Assembly: GCA_009838645.1 (NCBI GenBank)
Contig: VXRC01000045.1
Coordinates: 71,983 to 129,191 of the forward strand
Direction of reading: 5' to 3'
Length of the DNA stretch: 57,209 nucleotides
Source: Gemmatimonadota bacterium
GTDB taxonomy: Bacteria; JAAXHH01
Under the pieces are notes generated by a model, which was not told the DNA's origin, did not search any database, and saw only the letters and a list, made by a program, of their open reading frames with translations. The position numbers were made by a program, and so were the translations under genes. This document shows, one piece after another, positions 23,366-30,636 of the stretch (positions are counted from its first letter, which is position 1; each line of letters starts with the position of its first letter).

Positions 23366-23476
23366 ACATGGTTATTTAAGTCATTCAAAGGGTTGTCTCA
23401 AGCGATTTTTGCCGGTATATTCAAGGTCGCCACCAGACCAGGTTCCACCCGCCAACGACATTTGAAAAGGTCGCCC

Positions 23477-24310
23477 ATGCCCATCACCGATGCCCTGCCC
23501 GACATGAAGCGGGAACTGCGTTTTTTCCCGGCAAGAAACGAGAACCCCAAAACGCTTTCGCGCGAACAGGTCGAGTTTTTCAACACAAACGGGTATCTCT
23601 GCCCTCTCGACGTCTTCTCCCCGCGGGAAGCCGAGGAGAACCGAGCGTATTTTGAAGACCTGATGGACCGCGCGGAGCAGGAAGGATACAACAGCTACTC
23701 CATCAACGGCTGGCAGCGGCATTGCGAGGGTATCTACAACCTGGCCATGAACCCGCGGATTCTGGACTACGCGGAAGACCTGGTCGGAGAAACGCTGATC
23801 TGCGAAATGACCCACTATTTCTGCAAGATGCCGGGCGACGTAAAGCGGGTGAGCTGGCACCAGGACGCGTCCTACTGGCCCCTGACCCCGAGCAAGGTGG
23901 TGACGATCTGGCTGGCCATCGACGACGTGGACGAGGAAAACGGGCCCATGACGGTCATCCCCGGTTCCCACCTCCACGGGCAGATCCCCTTCGAAAACAG
24001 CACGGATGCCGAACGCAACGTGCTGGGACAGACCGTCCACGACCCGCTCAGGTGGGGCGGTGATCCCGTGCCCTTCGTCATGAAGGCGGGCCAGATCTCC
24101 ATGCACACCGACCTGCTGCTGCACGGATCCGAGCCGAACGTATCCGACCGCCGGCGATGCGGCCTGACGATCCGGTACCTGCCGCCGGACGTGCGGGGCC
24201 GCTACCCGGAGTACCACCGGGCCGTAATCTGCCGCGGCAGCGATCCCTCCGGTTACTGGAGACCCGTACCCCGACCCGTCGGCGACGAAATTCCTCCACG
24301 CAATCGCTAG
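23477..24310 (+). CDS. PhyH family oxygenase
   Basis: 277 residues. Iron ligands H128 and D130 ('SWHQDASYW') and H216 ('LLHGSEPN'), with the arginine run 'DRRRCG' after it. 'AIDDVDEENGPMTVIPGSH' is the family signature. Start fixed at 23477 by a GAAAAGG site 6 bases upstream. This subtype ('WHQD.SYWP') belongs to a branch acting on small, unactivated metabolites; substrate unknown. Its 3' end meets the Ogt-Ada gene tail to tail with a few bases of overlap. Confidence 0.92.
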   Translation: MPITDALPDMKRELRFFPARNENPKTLSREQVEFFNTNGYLCPLDVFSPREAEENRAYFEDLMDRAEQEGYNSYSINGWQRHCEGIYNLAMNPRILDYAEDLVGETLICEMTHYFCKMPGDVKRVSWHQDASYWPLTPSKVVTIWLAIDDVDEENGPMTVIPGSHLHGQIPFENSTDAERNVLGQTVHDPLRWGGDPVPFVMKAGQISMHTDLLLHGSEPNVSDRRRCGLTIRYLPPDVRGRYPEYHRAVICRGSDPSGYWRPVPRPVGDEIPPRNR

Positions 24311-25197
24311 ACCGACAGCGGCCTGCAGTGCTTGCATGGCCGGCATCCGCTGTTCGTCGCTTCCTCCGCACCGCTGAATTCAAGGCGGTGCCGCGGCTGG
24401 ACGCGGCGGGCGTCGCGGCAGGTCGGATAGCAGTAGATGCCGGTCGTCTGGCTGCCGATGAAGCGAACCCCGCGCTGCTTCCAGTTCGCAAGGTCCTCCC
24501 GCGGGATCCCTTCCCGTTCCAGCAAGGTCCATTTCATTTCCGGCCCGTAGTAGTAGTTTCCCACGCCTCCGGTCGAGGGAACGAGCCGGTGGCAGGGCAT
24601 CAGGAAGGGAACGGGGTTGCGGGCCATGACCGTGCCGACGGCCCGAATCGCTTTTGGCCTGCCTACTTCCCGGGCGAGCCAGGCATAGGGTCGGACCTCG
24701 CCTGTCGGTATCCTGGCCAGGTGCTGGAGCACGGTCTGTTCAAACTCGGTCAGTCCTTCCAGCGTGACCGGCGGCCGGGTGATCTTCTCTCCTTTTATGG
24801 CCCGCCTGACCGCTTCGACATACGCTTCGGGCAGCGAACCTCGGACCGTGGTCCGCCCCAGCCTTTCTTTGTAGTAGGATTCGAAGGTGCCGTCCTCATC
24901 CACATCAAGTTTTACCGCCGATATGCCCCTGGGTGTGCATGCCACGTGTGCCGACCCGAAATCCGTTTCGATCACATCGTATCGGTCTGCAATCCTGATC
25001 ATCACTTCCTCCTGTATCCCCGAAGGGGCAGTCAGTTTCAGTTTGGGAGATTCCTCGCCAAGGTTTTCCAGAATAGCCGCTTCTTCTCGTAAATCTGCGC
25101 ACCTTTCCAGGTGTTTCGTCGCGGACCGGCTGGCCTCATCGTCCGCCTCGCCGGTTCTGATCTGATCCAGGTACTGTCTTGCTTCATTAATGTCCAC
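24307..25197 (-). CDS. Fusion: anti-sigma-like N-terminus, O6-methylguanine methyltransferase (Ogt) and Ada-type zinc methyl-sensor
   Basis: 296 residues from a GTG at 25197 that overlaps the stop of the sigma-factor gene (GGAGG lies 9 bases before it). Residues 1-50 resemble an anti-sigma leader with a degenerate HC-type zinc motif ('KHLERCADL': H29, C33, but Leu36 instead of the second Cys). Residues 65-235 form an Ogt-type methyltransferase with the acceptor C202 in 'PCHRLV'. Residues 245-296 form an Ada N-terminal-type domain placed at the C-terminus: 'FIGSQTTGIYCYPTC' and 'CRPCKHC' give C256, C260, C288 and C291, the four zinc cysteines, one of which takes the methyl group from DNA phosphotriesters in Ada. 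It likely repairs alkylated DNA and may report damage to the sigma factor; the latter is inference. Confidence 0.88.
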   Translation of the reverse strand: MDINEARQYLDQIRTGEADDEASRSATKHLERCADLREEAAILENLGEESPKLKLTAPSGIQEEVMIRIADRYDVIETDFGSAHVACTPRGISAVKLDVDEDGTFESYYKERLGRTTVRGSLPEAYVEAVRRAIKGEKITRPPVTLEGLTEFEQTVLQHLARIPTGEVRPYAWLAREVGRPKAIRAVGTVMARNPVPFLMPCHRLVPSTGGVGNYYYGPEMKWTLLEREGIPREDLANWKQRGVRFIGSQTTGIYCYPTCRDARRVQPRHRLEFSGAEEATNSGCRPCKHCRPLSV

Positions 25198-25747
25198 TGG
25201 AACCGTCCTCCATGATTCTGCGAAGTTTACGCAGCGCCCGGTACACCTTGCCCCGCAGCGCCGATTCCGATGAGCGGGTGACCTTAGCGATTTCCGCGTA
25301 GGTGTACTGCTCAATGAAGCGCAGGATGATGAGTTCCCGGCTCTCTCTTCCCAGTTCAGCGAGGGCCGACCGGATCGCTTCTGCCCTGGTCAGGTCGTTT
25401 CCGGTTTCGAAGACCTGTGCTGGTATGTTTTCCCTCATGCTGACCAGCGCGTCGACTCTTCGTTTGCGCGACCTCAGCCTGTTCAGCGCCAGGTTCCGGA
25501 CGATGCGATACAGCCAGGGTCGGATTTCGAGCGTCCGGCATCGCTCTGCGTCGTACTTTCCGGCGAGCGTGGTGTAGGCTTTGACAAAGGCTTCCTGCGT
25601 GACGTCGAGGGCGTCGTCCGACCCTCCGAGCATATGGAAGGCGTAAGTGAAGAGCCTGTCCTGGTAGGTCGCCACCAGGTCCGTCACCGCGTCCCGGTTG
25701 CCACGATGGATTTCCAGCGCGATGCATCGTCCCTCGTCTTGCCTCAT
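25187..25747 (-). CDS. ECF-family RNA polymerase sigma factor
   Basis: 186 residues. Region 2 is near 20-90 ('YAFHMLGGSDDALDVTQEAF', 'WLYRIVRNLALNRLRSRKRR'), region 4 near 125-180 ('ELIILRFIEQYTYAEIAKV', 'SESALRGKVYRALRKLR'). It directs RNA polymerase to a small regulon. The next gene, a fusion with Ogt and Ada modules, starts inside its last codons, the arrangement normally used by sigma/anti-sigma pairs. A GGAAC-N17-GTC motif upstream could be an autoregulated promoter. Confidence 0.93.
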   Translation of the reverse strand: MRQDEGRCIALEIHRGNRDAVTDLVATYQDRLFTYAFHMLGGSDDALDVTQEAFVKAYTTLAGKYDAERCRTLEIRPWLYRIVRNLALNRLRSRKRRVDALVSMRENIPAQVFETGNDLTRAEAIRSALAELGRESRELIILRFIEQYTYAEIAKVTRSSESALRGKVYRALRKLRRIMEDGSSGH

Positions 25748-25844
25748 GCAAAATCCTTTGCTGGCCGGGGTCGGTCGGTACCAATCTTAAAACACCATGT
25801 ATGAGGTTTTCGTTCGGGGAAAAAGAGAAACTTGCATCCTTCTT

Positions 25845-25869
25845 GACAGGTGTTTTCTTATTTCGTTCC
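25845..25869 (-). promoter_or_regulatory. Candidate ECF-type promoter of the sigma/Ogt-Ada operon
   Basis: On the minus strand GGAAC (25869-25865) is followed after 17 bases by GTC (25847-25845), matching the usual ECF -35 core and a common -10. It lies about 100 bases before the sigma-factor start. Confidence 0.45.
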
Positions 25870-25940: not shown

Positions 25941-26180
25941 ATGAAGATGAGTGCTCGATATGTGAAAATCGTGGAGTGGTCAGACGAAGATCAGTGTTAC
26001 ATTGGCAGTTGCCCCGGTCTATTTTACGGTGGATGTCATGGGGAGAACGAGCAGGAAGTGTTCTCCGAGTTATGTCGGATCGTAGAAGAAACCATTGATT
26101 CGTATCAACGGGACGGTGAGTCTCTTCCTTCACCGACTTCGGGAAAAGACTATGCCAACAAAATGCTGAATATCGTCTGA
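25941..26180 (+). CDS. Orphan HicB-like antitoxin-fold protein
   Basis: 79 residues. 'YVKIVEWSDEDQCYIGSCPG' and the 'EVFSELCRIVEETIDSYQRDGE' helix, followed by 'LPSP', match the HicB partial RNase-H fold. The C-terminal DNA-binding helix-turn-helix of longer HicB proteins is missing. No HicA-like gene (short double-stranded-RNA-binding toxin) is seen on either side, so this is a solitary member. Function unknown. Confidence 0.7.
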   Translation: MKMSARYVKIVEWSDEDQCYIGSCPGLFYGGCHGENEQEVFSELCRIVEETIDSYQRDGESLPSPTSGKDYANKMLNIV

Positions 26181-28771: not shown

Positions 28772-29743
28772 CTATCCGTACATCCGGATCAGCGTCGGCT
28801 CGGTGGGCTTGTTCTTGCGGGGCGGACGCTGCGCCGTGACCTTCAGCGCCTCCTCCCATCCCCGGTTCCAGGTGGCGTAGTCCGACAGCACGAATTCGGG
28901 ATGGCGCCGGCTGCGGACGATGAAGTTGGGGTAGAACGAGCGGCCCGTGGGTAGCCCGGTTTGCTGGTAACGCAGGTCGAGGCTCCACCGGATCGTTCCG
29001 GAACGGTTGGGGATGGACCGGTGCGGGATCAGCTTGTGCATGAGCAGGACGTCGCCCTTCCTCATCGGCAGGGACAGGACCTCGCCCTCGGGCAACCCGC
29101 CGTCCTCAATGCCGAATCCTTCGCTCCAGTACACGGTCCGGCTGTGGTGCACCCGGGGGATGATCTGCAGGCATCCGTTCTCCTCGTCGGTGTCGCACAG
29201 GGGCAGCCAAACGGTGAGAATGAACACCGGGTCGGCGTCCTCGAGATGCACCTGCGCGTCCTGGTGCCAGGGCGCCACGTTTTCACTGATGCGGGCGGCC
29301 AGGGCATCCTCTTCGCCGTTGCCACCGCCATTCCCGCCGCCGTTGCCGTGACCCGACAGCCTGTTCAGGCCCTCCGGCAGCTTCGCCCGCAGATGCTGAA
29401 TGGGGCTGCACGTGATTTCGGGTCCGACGAGGGATTCCACGAGGTCCAGCATGCGGGCGTTGCCGAGAAAGCGGAACACCGCCTCGGCCCGCATGTTCAT
29501 GATGTCGATGTCATCGTAGATCGCGGTGTTTTCCCGGGTGATCAGGGCCAGCCGCCGCTCGAAGGATTCGTTCTCGTGCAGTTCGGCGATCCGTCCTTCG
29601 CGGTGGAGTTCGCTGGCCCTTTCGTCGACAAAGTCCTCAATCCCTGCAATAACGGGATCCAGGTCGTCACTGGTGAGCGCGCCTTCGACGATGACGTAGC
29701 CTTCATCCATGAAATGTCGTAACTGATCCTGTGTAAGAGACAT
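28772..29743 (-). CDS. PhyH family oxygenase with Gly/Asn repeat loop
   Basis: 323 residues. H160 and D162 ('PWHQDAQVH'), H241 ('LIPHRSIPNRSG') and 'CDTDEENGCLQIIPRVHH' define the oxygenase. A low-complexity loop, 'GHGNGGGNGGGNGEED' (131-146), made by a 12-bp repeat, is inserted just before the first iron ligands. The start at 29743 gives the usual 'MSLTQDQLRHF' opening. The next PhyH gene is 69 bp upstream on the same strand; the two are probably co-transcribed. Confidence 0.9.
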   Translation of the reverse strand: MSLTQDQLRHFMDEGYVIVEGALTSDDLDPVIAGIEDFVDERASELHREGRIAELHENESFERRLALITRENTAIYDDIDIMNMRAEAVFRFLGNARMLDLVESLVGPEITCSPIQHLRAKLPEGLNRLSGHGNGGGNGGGNGEEDALAARISENVAPWHQDAQVHLEDADPVFILTVWLPLCDTDEENGCLQIIPRVHHSRTVYWSEGFGIEDGGLPEGEVLSLPMRKGDVLLMHKLIPHRSIPNRSGTIRWSLDLRYQQTGLPTGRSFYPNFIVRSRRHPEFVLSDYATWNRGWEEALKVTAQRPPRKNKPTEPTLIRMYG

Positions 29744-29812
29744 GCTGGTGGGATTCCCCTTCCGGTGCCGTGTTTTCATGCCGTGCCGCAACTTCAAGCC
29801 GGCGTCACATCG

Positions 29813-30601
29813 TCAAGCCGCTTTCGGAATGTGCGTAATCAGGTTCTGCAGGTGCCGCAGTCGTTCGGACGAGGCCGTGGACAGCAGGGGGCCGTCCTCC
29901 CTGCCGAATACCTCCCGCGTGGTATAGCCATGTTGTCGGATGATCTTCCTGAAGGCCTCAAGAGTTGGACCGTCCGTGTGGTGTCCTGTGTACACAATCG
30001 TGAACATCCGCCTTCTTTTACCTCCACCCCACGCGCTGTGCTTGGTCGAATGGTTGAACACGGCGAGGTCTCCGGGCCGGGTCTCGACGGCGACCGCCGG
30101 TACGTCGCTGCCGTGGAGTCCACCCCAGCCGCCCATTTTGCCCGTCAGGTGCGCATGGACGGTTTCCGCGTACCCCTCGCCGAACCGGTGGCTTCCCGGT
30201 ATGACCCGCAACGCGCCTGTGTCCTTCGTCATGGGATCCAGGTAGATGGCCATCTTGTAGAAACGGATGGGCTCGGGCCACTGGGTGTCGGAGTGCCATC
30301 TCGTGTCGCCGACGTAGAGGTTCCCGTCGCTATTCCAGTACTGGTACTGATCACCCAGCAGGCCGGCCGCGATGCCGTGAATGCGCGGATCGTCCAACAG
30401 CGTGCACAGGTACGGATCATGGTTGATGAACGGCACCACGGCCAGCCGCTCCAGGCCTTCGTGGTCGTCGCCCCCGTTTTTCTTCAACAGCCCGTCGAAA
30501 GCCTCTGTGATCTCATCGATCCGGTCGTCGAGCAGACCGGGGAAGTGCAGATACCCGAAGGTATCCATGAATTCTTTCTGGTGTGCATCCAGTTGAAACA
30601 T
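29813..30601 (-). CDS. PhyH family oxygenase
   Basis: 262 residues. H103 and D105 ('RWHSDTQW'), H188 ('TKHSAWGGGKRRRMF') and 'TGALRVIPGSHRFGEGY'. The ATG at 30601 has GGGAG 5 bases upstream. Near-copy in plan of the PhyH at 9317 (same opening and same 'TKHSAWGGG' segment), so a duplication separated by about 20 kb. Lies upstream of another, more distant PhyH in the same direction and 35 bp after the sialidase-like gene. Confidence 0.92.
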   Translation of the reverse strand: MFQLDAHQKEFMDTFGYLHFPGLLDDRIDEITEAFDGLLKKNGGDDHEGLERLAVVPFINHDPYLCTLLDDPRIHGIAAGLLGDQYQYWNSDGNLYVGDTRWHSDTQWPEPIRFYKMAIYLDPMTKDTGALRVIPGSHRFGEGYAETVHAHLTGKMGGWGGLHGSDVPAVAVETRPGDLAVFNHSTKHSAWGGGKRRRMFTIVYTGHHTDGPTLEAFRKIIRQHGYTTREVFGREDGPLLSTASSERLRHLQNLITHIPKAA

Positions 30602-30636
30602 GGAAACTCCCAAAAGTCTTTTATAGCCGGAATGGT

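Follow-up and report, generated by a model that had tools for sequence, protein, structure and literature searches.

A predicted alkylation-response circuit in which a rearranged Ada protein carries an anti-sigma domain and is paired with an ECF sigma factor

The systems closest to the locus described here are Escherichia coli Ada, the class I (ZAS) anti-sigma factors, the extracytoplasmic function (ECF) sigma factors of group ECF122, and the stand-alone Ogt/MGMT methyltransferases. Class I anti-sigma domains consist of a three-helix bundle, a linker and a helix 4, which makes most of the coevolving contacts and covers the RNA polymerase surface of sigma2; an Hx3Cx2C zinc motif is found in about half of them and is not obligatory (PMC7406223). 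In RsiW the zinc ligands are C3, H30, C34 and C37, and sigma is bound equally well without zinc (PMC5358783). ECF122, a group of Casas-Pastor et al. 2021 with a representative from Cellulomonas (Actinomycetota), is listed with 6-O-methylguanine DNA methyltransferases among its conserved neighbours, with no anti-sigma factor and with an unknown mechanism (PMC8999054). In this work we analyzed 57,209 nucleotides of contig VXRC01000045.1 from Gemmatimonadota bacterium (GCA_009838645.1), referred to throughout as the window, in which an ECF sigma gene is followed by a gene for a 296-residue protein, the fusion, that joins an anti-sigma domain, an Ogt/C-Ada methyltransferase and an Ada zinc domain. 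We propose, with a probability of about 0.7, that sigma and fusion make up a self-regulating circuit responding to alkylation, with the fusion as a cytoplasmic anti-sigma factor gated by methyl transfer. What the sequence itself shows is the order of the domains, the homology to anti-sigma factors, catalytic residues that are intact, and a pairing and a promoter that are conserved.

The fusion shares with Ada the four zinc cysteines and the PCHR acceptor, and its operon, judging from the promoter, would likewise be self-induced. In contrast to Ada, whose order is N-Ada zinc domain, AraC-type domain and C-Ada, the fusion has the two Ada halves reversed, lacks the AraC-type domain, carries an anti-sigma domain, and would act through an ECF sigma encoded upstream. 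With class I pairs such as ChrR/SigE, RsrA/SigR and the membrane-bound RsiW/SigW it shares a four-helix N-terminus, a C-x25-H-x3-C-x2-C motif in intact relatives, an anti-sigma gene that overlaps the end of the sigma gene, and a probably autoregulated operon. Where they sense through a cupin, a redox centre or a membrane segment, it has as its sensor a suicide DNA methyltransferase joined to a methyl-phosphotriester domain, and the zinc ligands of the window copy are degenerate. Going by the review description of ECF122, the two have in common an ECF sigma with a 6-O-methylguanine DNA methyltransferase neighbour, whereas that group is listed without an anti-sigma factor and the neighbour in the window carries an anti-sigma domain (PMC8999054). 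Stand-alone Ogt/MGMT proteins have the methyltransferase fold and the catalytic residues, to which the fusion adds sensor and anti-sigma domains, a GEVRPYAW signature and an upstream sigma gene. The original prediction, made from the letters of this stretch, knew of no described system of this kind. This stands for the architecture, since no description of an anti-sigma/Ogt/Ada fusion or of the cross-phylum promoter was found within the searchable literature, but the neighbourhood of sigma and methyltransferase has a precedent in ECF122 (PMC8999054). The neighbourhood is therefore not new; the anti-sigma domain on a methyltransferase, the permuted Ada sensor and the cross-phylum promoter appear to be, within that literature. 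The features are as follows.

25788..25815, minus strand: conserved ECF-type promoter, GAAC-N15-GGTGTTTTA, from a block aligned in all genus members
25747-24307, minus strand: two-gene operon, sigma (25747-25187) then fusion (25197-24307)
25187..25747, minus strand: ECF sigma factor, 186 aa (Pfam Sigma70_r2, 8e-14; Sigma70_r4_2, 1.3e-10)
25187..25197, minus strand: stop of the sigma gene and GTG of the fusion, overlapping by 11 nt
24307..25197, minus strand: fusion gene, 296 aa, predicted anti-sigma domain, Ogt/C-Ada and Ada zinc domain (Pfam, alignments, model)
25048..25197, minus strand: residues 1-50, predicted three-helix bundle of a class I anti-sigma domain (modelled helices 3-15, 20-32 and 34-49)
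24988..25047, minus strand: residues 51-70, linker and helix 4, putatively sigma2-binding (RsiW alignment and model; L53, P58, I/L61, V65)
24754..24987, minus strand: residues 71-148, N-terminal (ribonuclease-like) part of the methyltransferase, aligning with E. coli C-Ada (1sfe)
24505..24753, minus strand: residues 149-231, catalytic domain with C202 in PCHR (codon 24594-24592) and the motif GEVRPYAW (DNA_binding_1, PF01035, 1.2e-25)
24316..24468, minus strand: residues 244-294, Ada zinc/methyl-phosphotriester domain (Ada_Zn_binding, PF02805, 2.1e-9; 1adn alignment)

Both halves of the methyltransferase-sensor part find E. coli Ada as their best match among solved structures, residues 70-234 matching C-Ada (1sfe, 7e-19) and the C-terminus matching N-Ada (1adn, 2e-7). 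The cysteines C256 (codon 24432-24430), C260, C288 and C291 align with C38, C42, C69 and C72 of Ada, and the fold match of the zinc part is 1u8b, the complex of methylated N-Ada with DNA. The catalytic residues of the methyltransferase are invariant across 47 aligned sequences, and the catalytic domain is the most tightly constrained region of the fusion (omega 0.04). Pfam and NCBIfam searches found no AraC-type helix-turn-helix domain in the fusion, which scores 108 bits with the Ada equivalog model, below the cut-off of 345. Because both halves match Ada and the AraC-type domain was not found, we read the fusion, from these alignments, as a rearranged Ada devoid of a DNA-reading output. Its Ada zinc domain is the only one in the window's genome. 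An ordinary stand-alone Ogt is encoded on another contig of the same genome, and the fusion is therefore not simply the sole methyltransferase of the cell.

Sequence and modelling both indicate that the fusion begins with a class I anti-sigma domain. Among PDB sequences, the N-terminal profile matches RsiW best (E 0.014), over residues 10-68 with helix 4 included, and the helix-4 segment aligns with RsiW as far as RsiW residue 70. The model of the window protein, with a mean pLDDT (predicted local distance difference test) of 86.5 and values of about 57-76 over the first 70 residues, has helices at 3-15, 20-32, 34-49 and 61-69, the arrangement published for class I. When the full-length model was used for a fold search, methyltransferases and N-Ada alone were returned, and the N-terminal domain was therefore modelled separately; for the domain from the sister genus, the anti-sigma factors RslA and RskA take the first eight places among PDB fold matches. 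Pfam zf-HC2 gave no match on the window copy and 26.6 bits, against a cut-off of 22.2, on the sister-genus copy (L038, genome G012). Selection has acted on both N-terminal parts, with omega 0.45 (95% 0.28-0.76) for the bundle, residues 1-50, and 0.22 for helix 4.

The zinc site is incomplete in the window copy, where H29 and C33 are kept, C3 has become Ile and C36 Leu. The original prediction described a half-degraded motif with H29, C33 and Leu36; it had these residues right, but two of the four ligands are lost rather than one. The full C3-x25-H29-x3-C33-x2-C36, with a spacing almost identical to that of the RsiW ligands, is present in three relatives (L038/L013 in the sister genus; L034/L008, genome G004; L035/L009, genome G005), and ligand loss is seen in other genus members as well, for example C3/Q29/S36 in L010. 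The Hx3Cx2C motif of class I is thus broken in the window (I3, H29, C33, L36) and whole in those three. We considered this decay as an argument against an anti-sigma domain and rejected it, because intact copies exist in the genus, RsiW binds sigma free of zinc, and the motif is missing in about half of the class. The remaining elements of the original prediction's architecture were all recovered: the GTG start of the 296-residue protein inside the last sigma codons (GTG at 25197, end at 24307), an N-terminus resembling anti-sigma domains, a complete methyltransferase with C202 in PCHR, a C-terminal Ada zinc domain with its four cysteines, and an order reversed relative to Ada.

The sigma factor matches the sigma70-ECF model TIGR02937 above its cut-off and consists of sigma2 and sigma4 regions only. 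Its overlap with the fusion gene suggests translational coupling. The sigma-to-fusion offset of -10 is identical in 12/12 genus members, and elsewhere 4-nt ATGA overlaps prevail. Twelve orthologous pairs, found across the genus and family and, within the genus, alike in gene order and overlap, exclude a chance arrangement.

Upstream of the sigma gene, the conserved promoter has its -35 element GAAC at 25815-25812 and its -10 element GGTGTT at 25796-25791, about 41 nt 5´ of the sigma ATG. NAAC-N15-GGTGTT is also located 5´ of the paired sigmas of Nonomuraea, Thermogemmatispora, Rubrobacter and other Actinomycetota and Chloroflexota. More generally, AAC-N15-[CG]GTGTT precedes 45/74 paired sigmas, and spacers of other lengths are found at 0-5. 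The stringent motif occurs 28 times in 41 pair-carrying genomes, 18 of these being the operon, with no match for the reversed control, and has 4 matches against 2 control matches in 148 genomes of the same class. The window's genome contains a single copy, at the operon. Among Latescibacterota, AAC-N15-GGTGTTNTA has 14 matches in 11 genomes, of which 11 are the sigma promoter (reversed control 5); a wider regulon in this phylum was rejected, as no site besides the operon rises above background. Beside the strong -35 and -10 elements, no extra operator is obvious in the aligned upstream regions. A different motif, GGAAC-N17-GTC, had been put forward for autoregulation. This sequence is present at 25869-25845 on the minus strand and in only 1/10 of the other upstream regions of the genus; we rejected it as the autoregulatory promoter, and NAAC-N15-GGTGTT is the conserved promoter instead. 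The conserved promoter fits an autoregulated sigma that mainly makes the fusion.

In nine Nonomuraea genomes (L124, L128, L129, L137-L140, L143, L144; 9 matches), a second TGCAAC-N15-GGTGTT is found about 30-40 nt 5´ of one short-chain dehydrogenase/reductase gene; this gene is likely another target, either of the sigma itself or of one that shares its specificity.

A profile of the fusion, scanned over 84,980 species genomes, identified 78 loci. The pair is present in 11/11 other genus genomes searched and in one sister-genus genome, and about 60 more paired loci in Chloroflexota and Actinomycetota bring the total to about 70, Latescibacterota included. The pair-bearing groups are Latescibacterota, Chloroflexota including Thermomicrobia, and Actinomycetota (Nonomuraea, Thermobifida, Rubrobacter, Acidimicrobiia), with more distant sigmas at two Rokubacteria loci and one Anaerolinea locus. 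The order is always sigma then fusion, and the fusion start usually overlaps the sigma stop. Every locus with the GEVRPYAW signature and available upstream sequence has a sigma gene directly before the methyltransferase gene, two further ones starting at a contig end, and the six loci with VGTVMARN only are ordinary Ogts with no sigma gene upstream. Retrieval by GEVRPYAW biases this set, as there are Streptomyces members that do not have the signature. In 6/7 genomes with 8-22 ECF sigmas, the one that best matches the window sigma is the paired one; in the remaining genome (G060) it ranks second. In a sigma tree built from a short search, with several open forks, 67/70 paired sigmas fall in one region with a few unpaired rows nearby. 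Downstream of the pair, no conserved genes were seen across the loci inspected. The original prediction had made its circuit depend on an N-terminus that resembles anti-sigma domains and on a pairing shared by relatives; the resemblance was found, and the pairing is kept in the genus, the sister genus, Chloroflexota and Actinomycetota.

Two variants of the pair stand out in the survey. In three Chloroflexota loci (L098:3869-4735, L100:4001-4723, L101:4001-4732), an intact-looking zinc anti-sigma motif and Ogt are joined with no Ada domain, next to a sigma of a different lineage; the GGTGTT promoter was not found at these three loci. Here the three parts are associated for a second time. The zinc motif of L098 is seemingly duplicated. 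The other variant, L104:3947-4498 from Nocardiopsis potens, is a paired Ogt that has no Ada domain, with a sigma that groups with those of Thermobifida and Nonomuraea; the missing domain could reflect secondary loss or a frameshift.

The taxonomy of some of the genomes is inconsistent. The nearest named genomes to the window are metagenome-assembled genomes (MAGs) mostly titled Candidatus Latescibacterota, and public MAG titles within the genus and family (L032, L033, L035, L038) conflict among Latescibacterota, Gemmatimonadetes and Zixiibacteriota. The sigma of an 'Acidobacteria' MAG (L048) is almost identical to that of an Acidimicrobiia MAG (L065), and L048 is probably misnamed or contaminated.

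We suggest the following model, in which sigma inhibition, use of the conserved promoter by the sigma (autoregulation), release triggered by methylation and closure of the loop by fresh fusion are inferred steps. The N-terminal domain, that is, the three-helix bundle and helix 4, would keep the ECF sigma inactive. The rearranged Ada half would accept methyl groups from O6-methylguanine at C202 and from DNA phosphotriesters at C256, and methyl transfer, or the DNA binding that accompanies it, would weaken the hold on sigma. Released sigma would then transcribe its own operon from NAAC-N15-GGTGTT, raising repair capacity, until newly made, unmethylated fusion recaptures it and ends the response. 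The signalling cysteine, C202 or C256, may differ among members. L098, L100, L101 and L104 have no Ada domain, and therefore only the Ogt cysteine could signal there; in Streptomyces copies the Ogt match is weakened (40.9 bits) and a separate Ogt adjoins.

Several observations weigh against this model. Most phyla other than Latescibacterota lack the three-helix bundle and retain only a helix-4-like segment, and the bundle-less proteins may use another sigma contact or none. Within the window's genus the bundle is eroding, given the two lost zinc ligands and its omega of 0.45. The fold matches to RslA and RskA are weak (E 1.1-4.1), and confidence in the small N-terminal model is modest. The sensor site is not uniform, the Ada domain being absent in the paired L098, L100, L101 and L104, and covariation between sigma and fusion gave no interpretable signal at an effective number of 29.

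Some of these points would be expected if the operon served repair only, with the sigma regulated elsewhere, for example transcriptionally, the fusion merely its main target, and the Latescibacterota N-terminus a decaying relic. ECF122 is listed with no cognate anti-sigma factor (PMC8999054), the bundle is the least constrained part of the fusion in the genus as well as absent in most phyla, and the sole target detected in Latescibacterota is the operon itself. We nevertheless consider this improbable. Purifying selection persists on the anti-sigma domain, with an upper bound of 0.76 for the bundle and a lower omega still for helix 4, and the short segment before the methyltransferase in other phyla keeps L50, L53, P58, L61 and V/I65 in line with RsiW helix 4, of which L53, P58, L61 and V65 are helix-4-like positions retained in all phyla. 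In addition, L098, L100 and L101 also fuse an anti-sigma domain to a sigma-adjacent protein, with a different sigma lineage.

Less probable again is that the N-terminal helices recruit rather than inhibit. E. coli Ada activates transcription by contacting RNA polymerase sigma, and a methylated fusion could, in Ada-like manner, bring its sigma to damaged DNA or to the promoter. Most members do keep only the helix-4-like contact and have no bundle of the kind with which class I factors block sigma4, and the strong -35 and -10 elements with no obvious extra operator in the aligned upstream regions would suit such a role. However, in intact members the four-helix domain is of the standard inhibitory kind, and helix 4 of class I domains blocks the surface of sigma2 that contacts RNA polymerase (PMC7406223). 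As for redox or zinc sensing by the anti-sigma domain, as in RsrA, with the methyltransferase as an effector only, the CHCC motif is whole in three species, but two ligands are gone in the window copy and in most of the genus, yet the pair is kept; moreover, the CHCC bundle is missing in other phyla despite a conserved sigma, promoter and Ada zinc domain. We regard this last explanation as very unlikely. A methyl-transfer-gated anti-sigma factor, with sigma release taking the place of the AraC-type output in an analogue of the Ada response, is the reading we prefer.

We would give even odds to a broader view, that of a class of DNA-damage responses sharing a single promoter code across three or more phyla. 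In these, the anti-sigma role would fall to a suicide methyltransferase, which methyl transfer irreversibly spends, freeing an ECF sigma; Ada would have been rearranged and its AraC output replaced, and some Streptomyces would use the response to protect the producer of a DNA-reactive compound. The Streptomyces operons have the order sigma, Ogt-Ada fusion and stand-alone Ogt, and the same promoter precedes them at -37. They are located on plasmids of Streptomyces sp. NBC_01022 and NBC_00503 (L197:8431-21064 and L198:10782-30657). The accompanying clusters encode a nitrosuccinate lyase (774 bits, cut-off 650), an FAD-NAD(P)-binding protein, a diazotase-like ligase, a methyltransferase and metK/metF, and that of NBC_00503 also includes a DNA-damage 2-oxoglutarate oxygenase (PF09859) and another Ogt. 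Gene sets of the CreD/CreE/CreM type make diazo groups (PMC11429834). The operon may provide self-protection to the producer of a DNA-reactive compound.

If the circuit operates as proposed, an anti-sigma readout of DNA alkylation would unite Ada-type suicide sensing with ECF sigma/anti-sigma signalling, and would offer a mechanism for sigmas with methyltransferase neighbours such as ECF122, listed as unknown in PMC8999054. The two genes would also make up a compact biosensor for alkylation, complete with a defined promoter. The Latescibacterota copies are important in that they keep a recognisable anti-sigma domain, which is reduced or lost in most other members. The pair is found in the culturable Thermobifida fusca, Thermogemmatispora, Nonomuraea and Rubrobacter radiotolerans, and so is testable there.

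Two further features of the window lie close to the operon. At 25941-26177 on the plus strand, a 79-aa open reading frame (MKMSARYVKIVEWSDEDQCYIGSCPGLFYGG...) resembles a HicB-type antitoxin; Pfam gave no match at 0.01, and no adjoining partner was seen. Phytanoyl-CoA dioxygenase-like genes are clustered at 23465-24307 (plus strand), 28772-29797 (minus strand) and 29813-30613 (minus strand); the first of these (PF05721, 2.5e-29) is convergent with the fusion gene and ends in its stop region.

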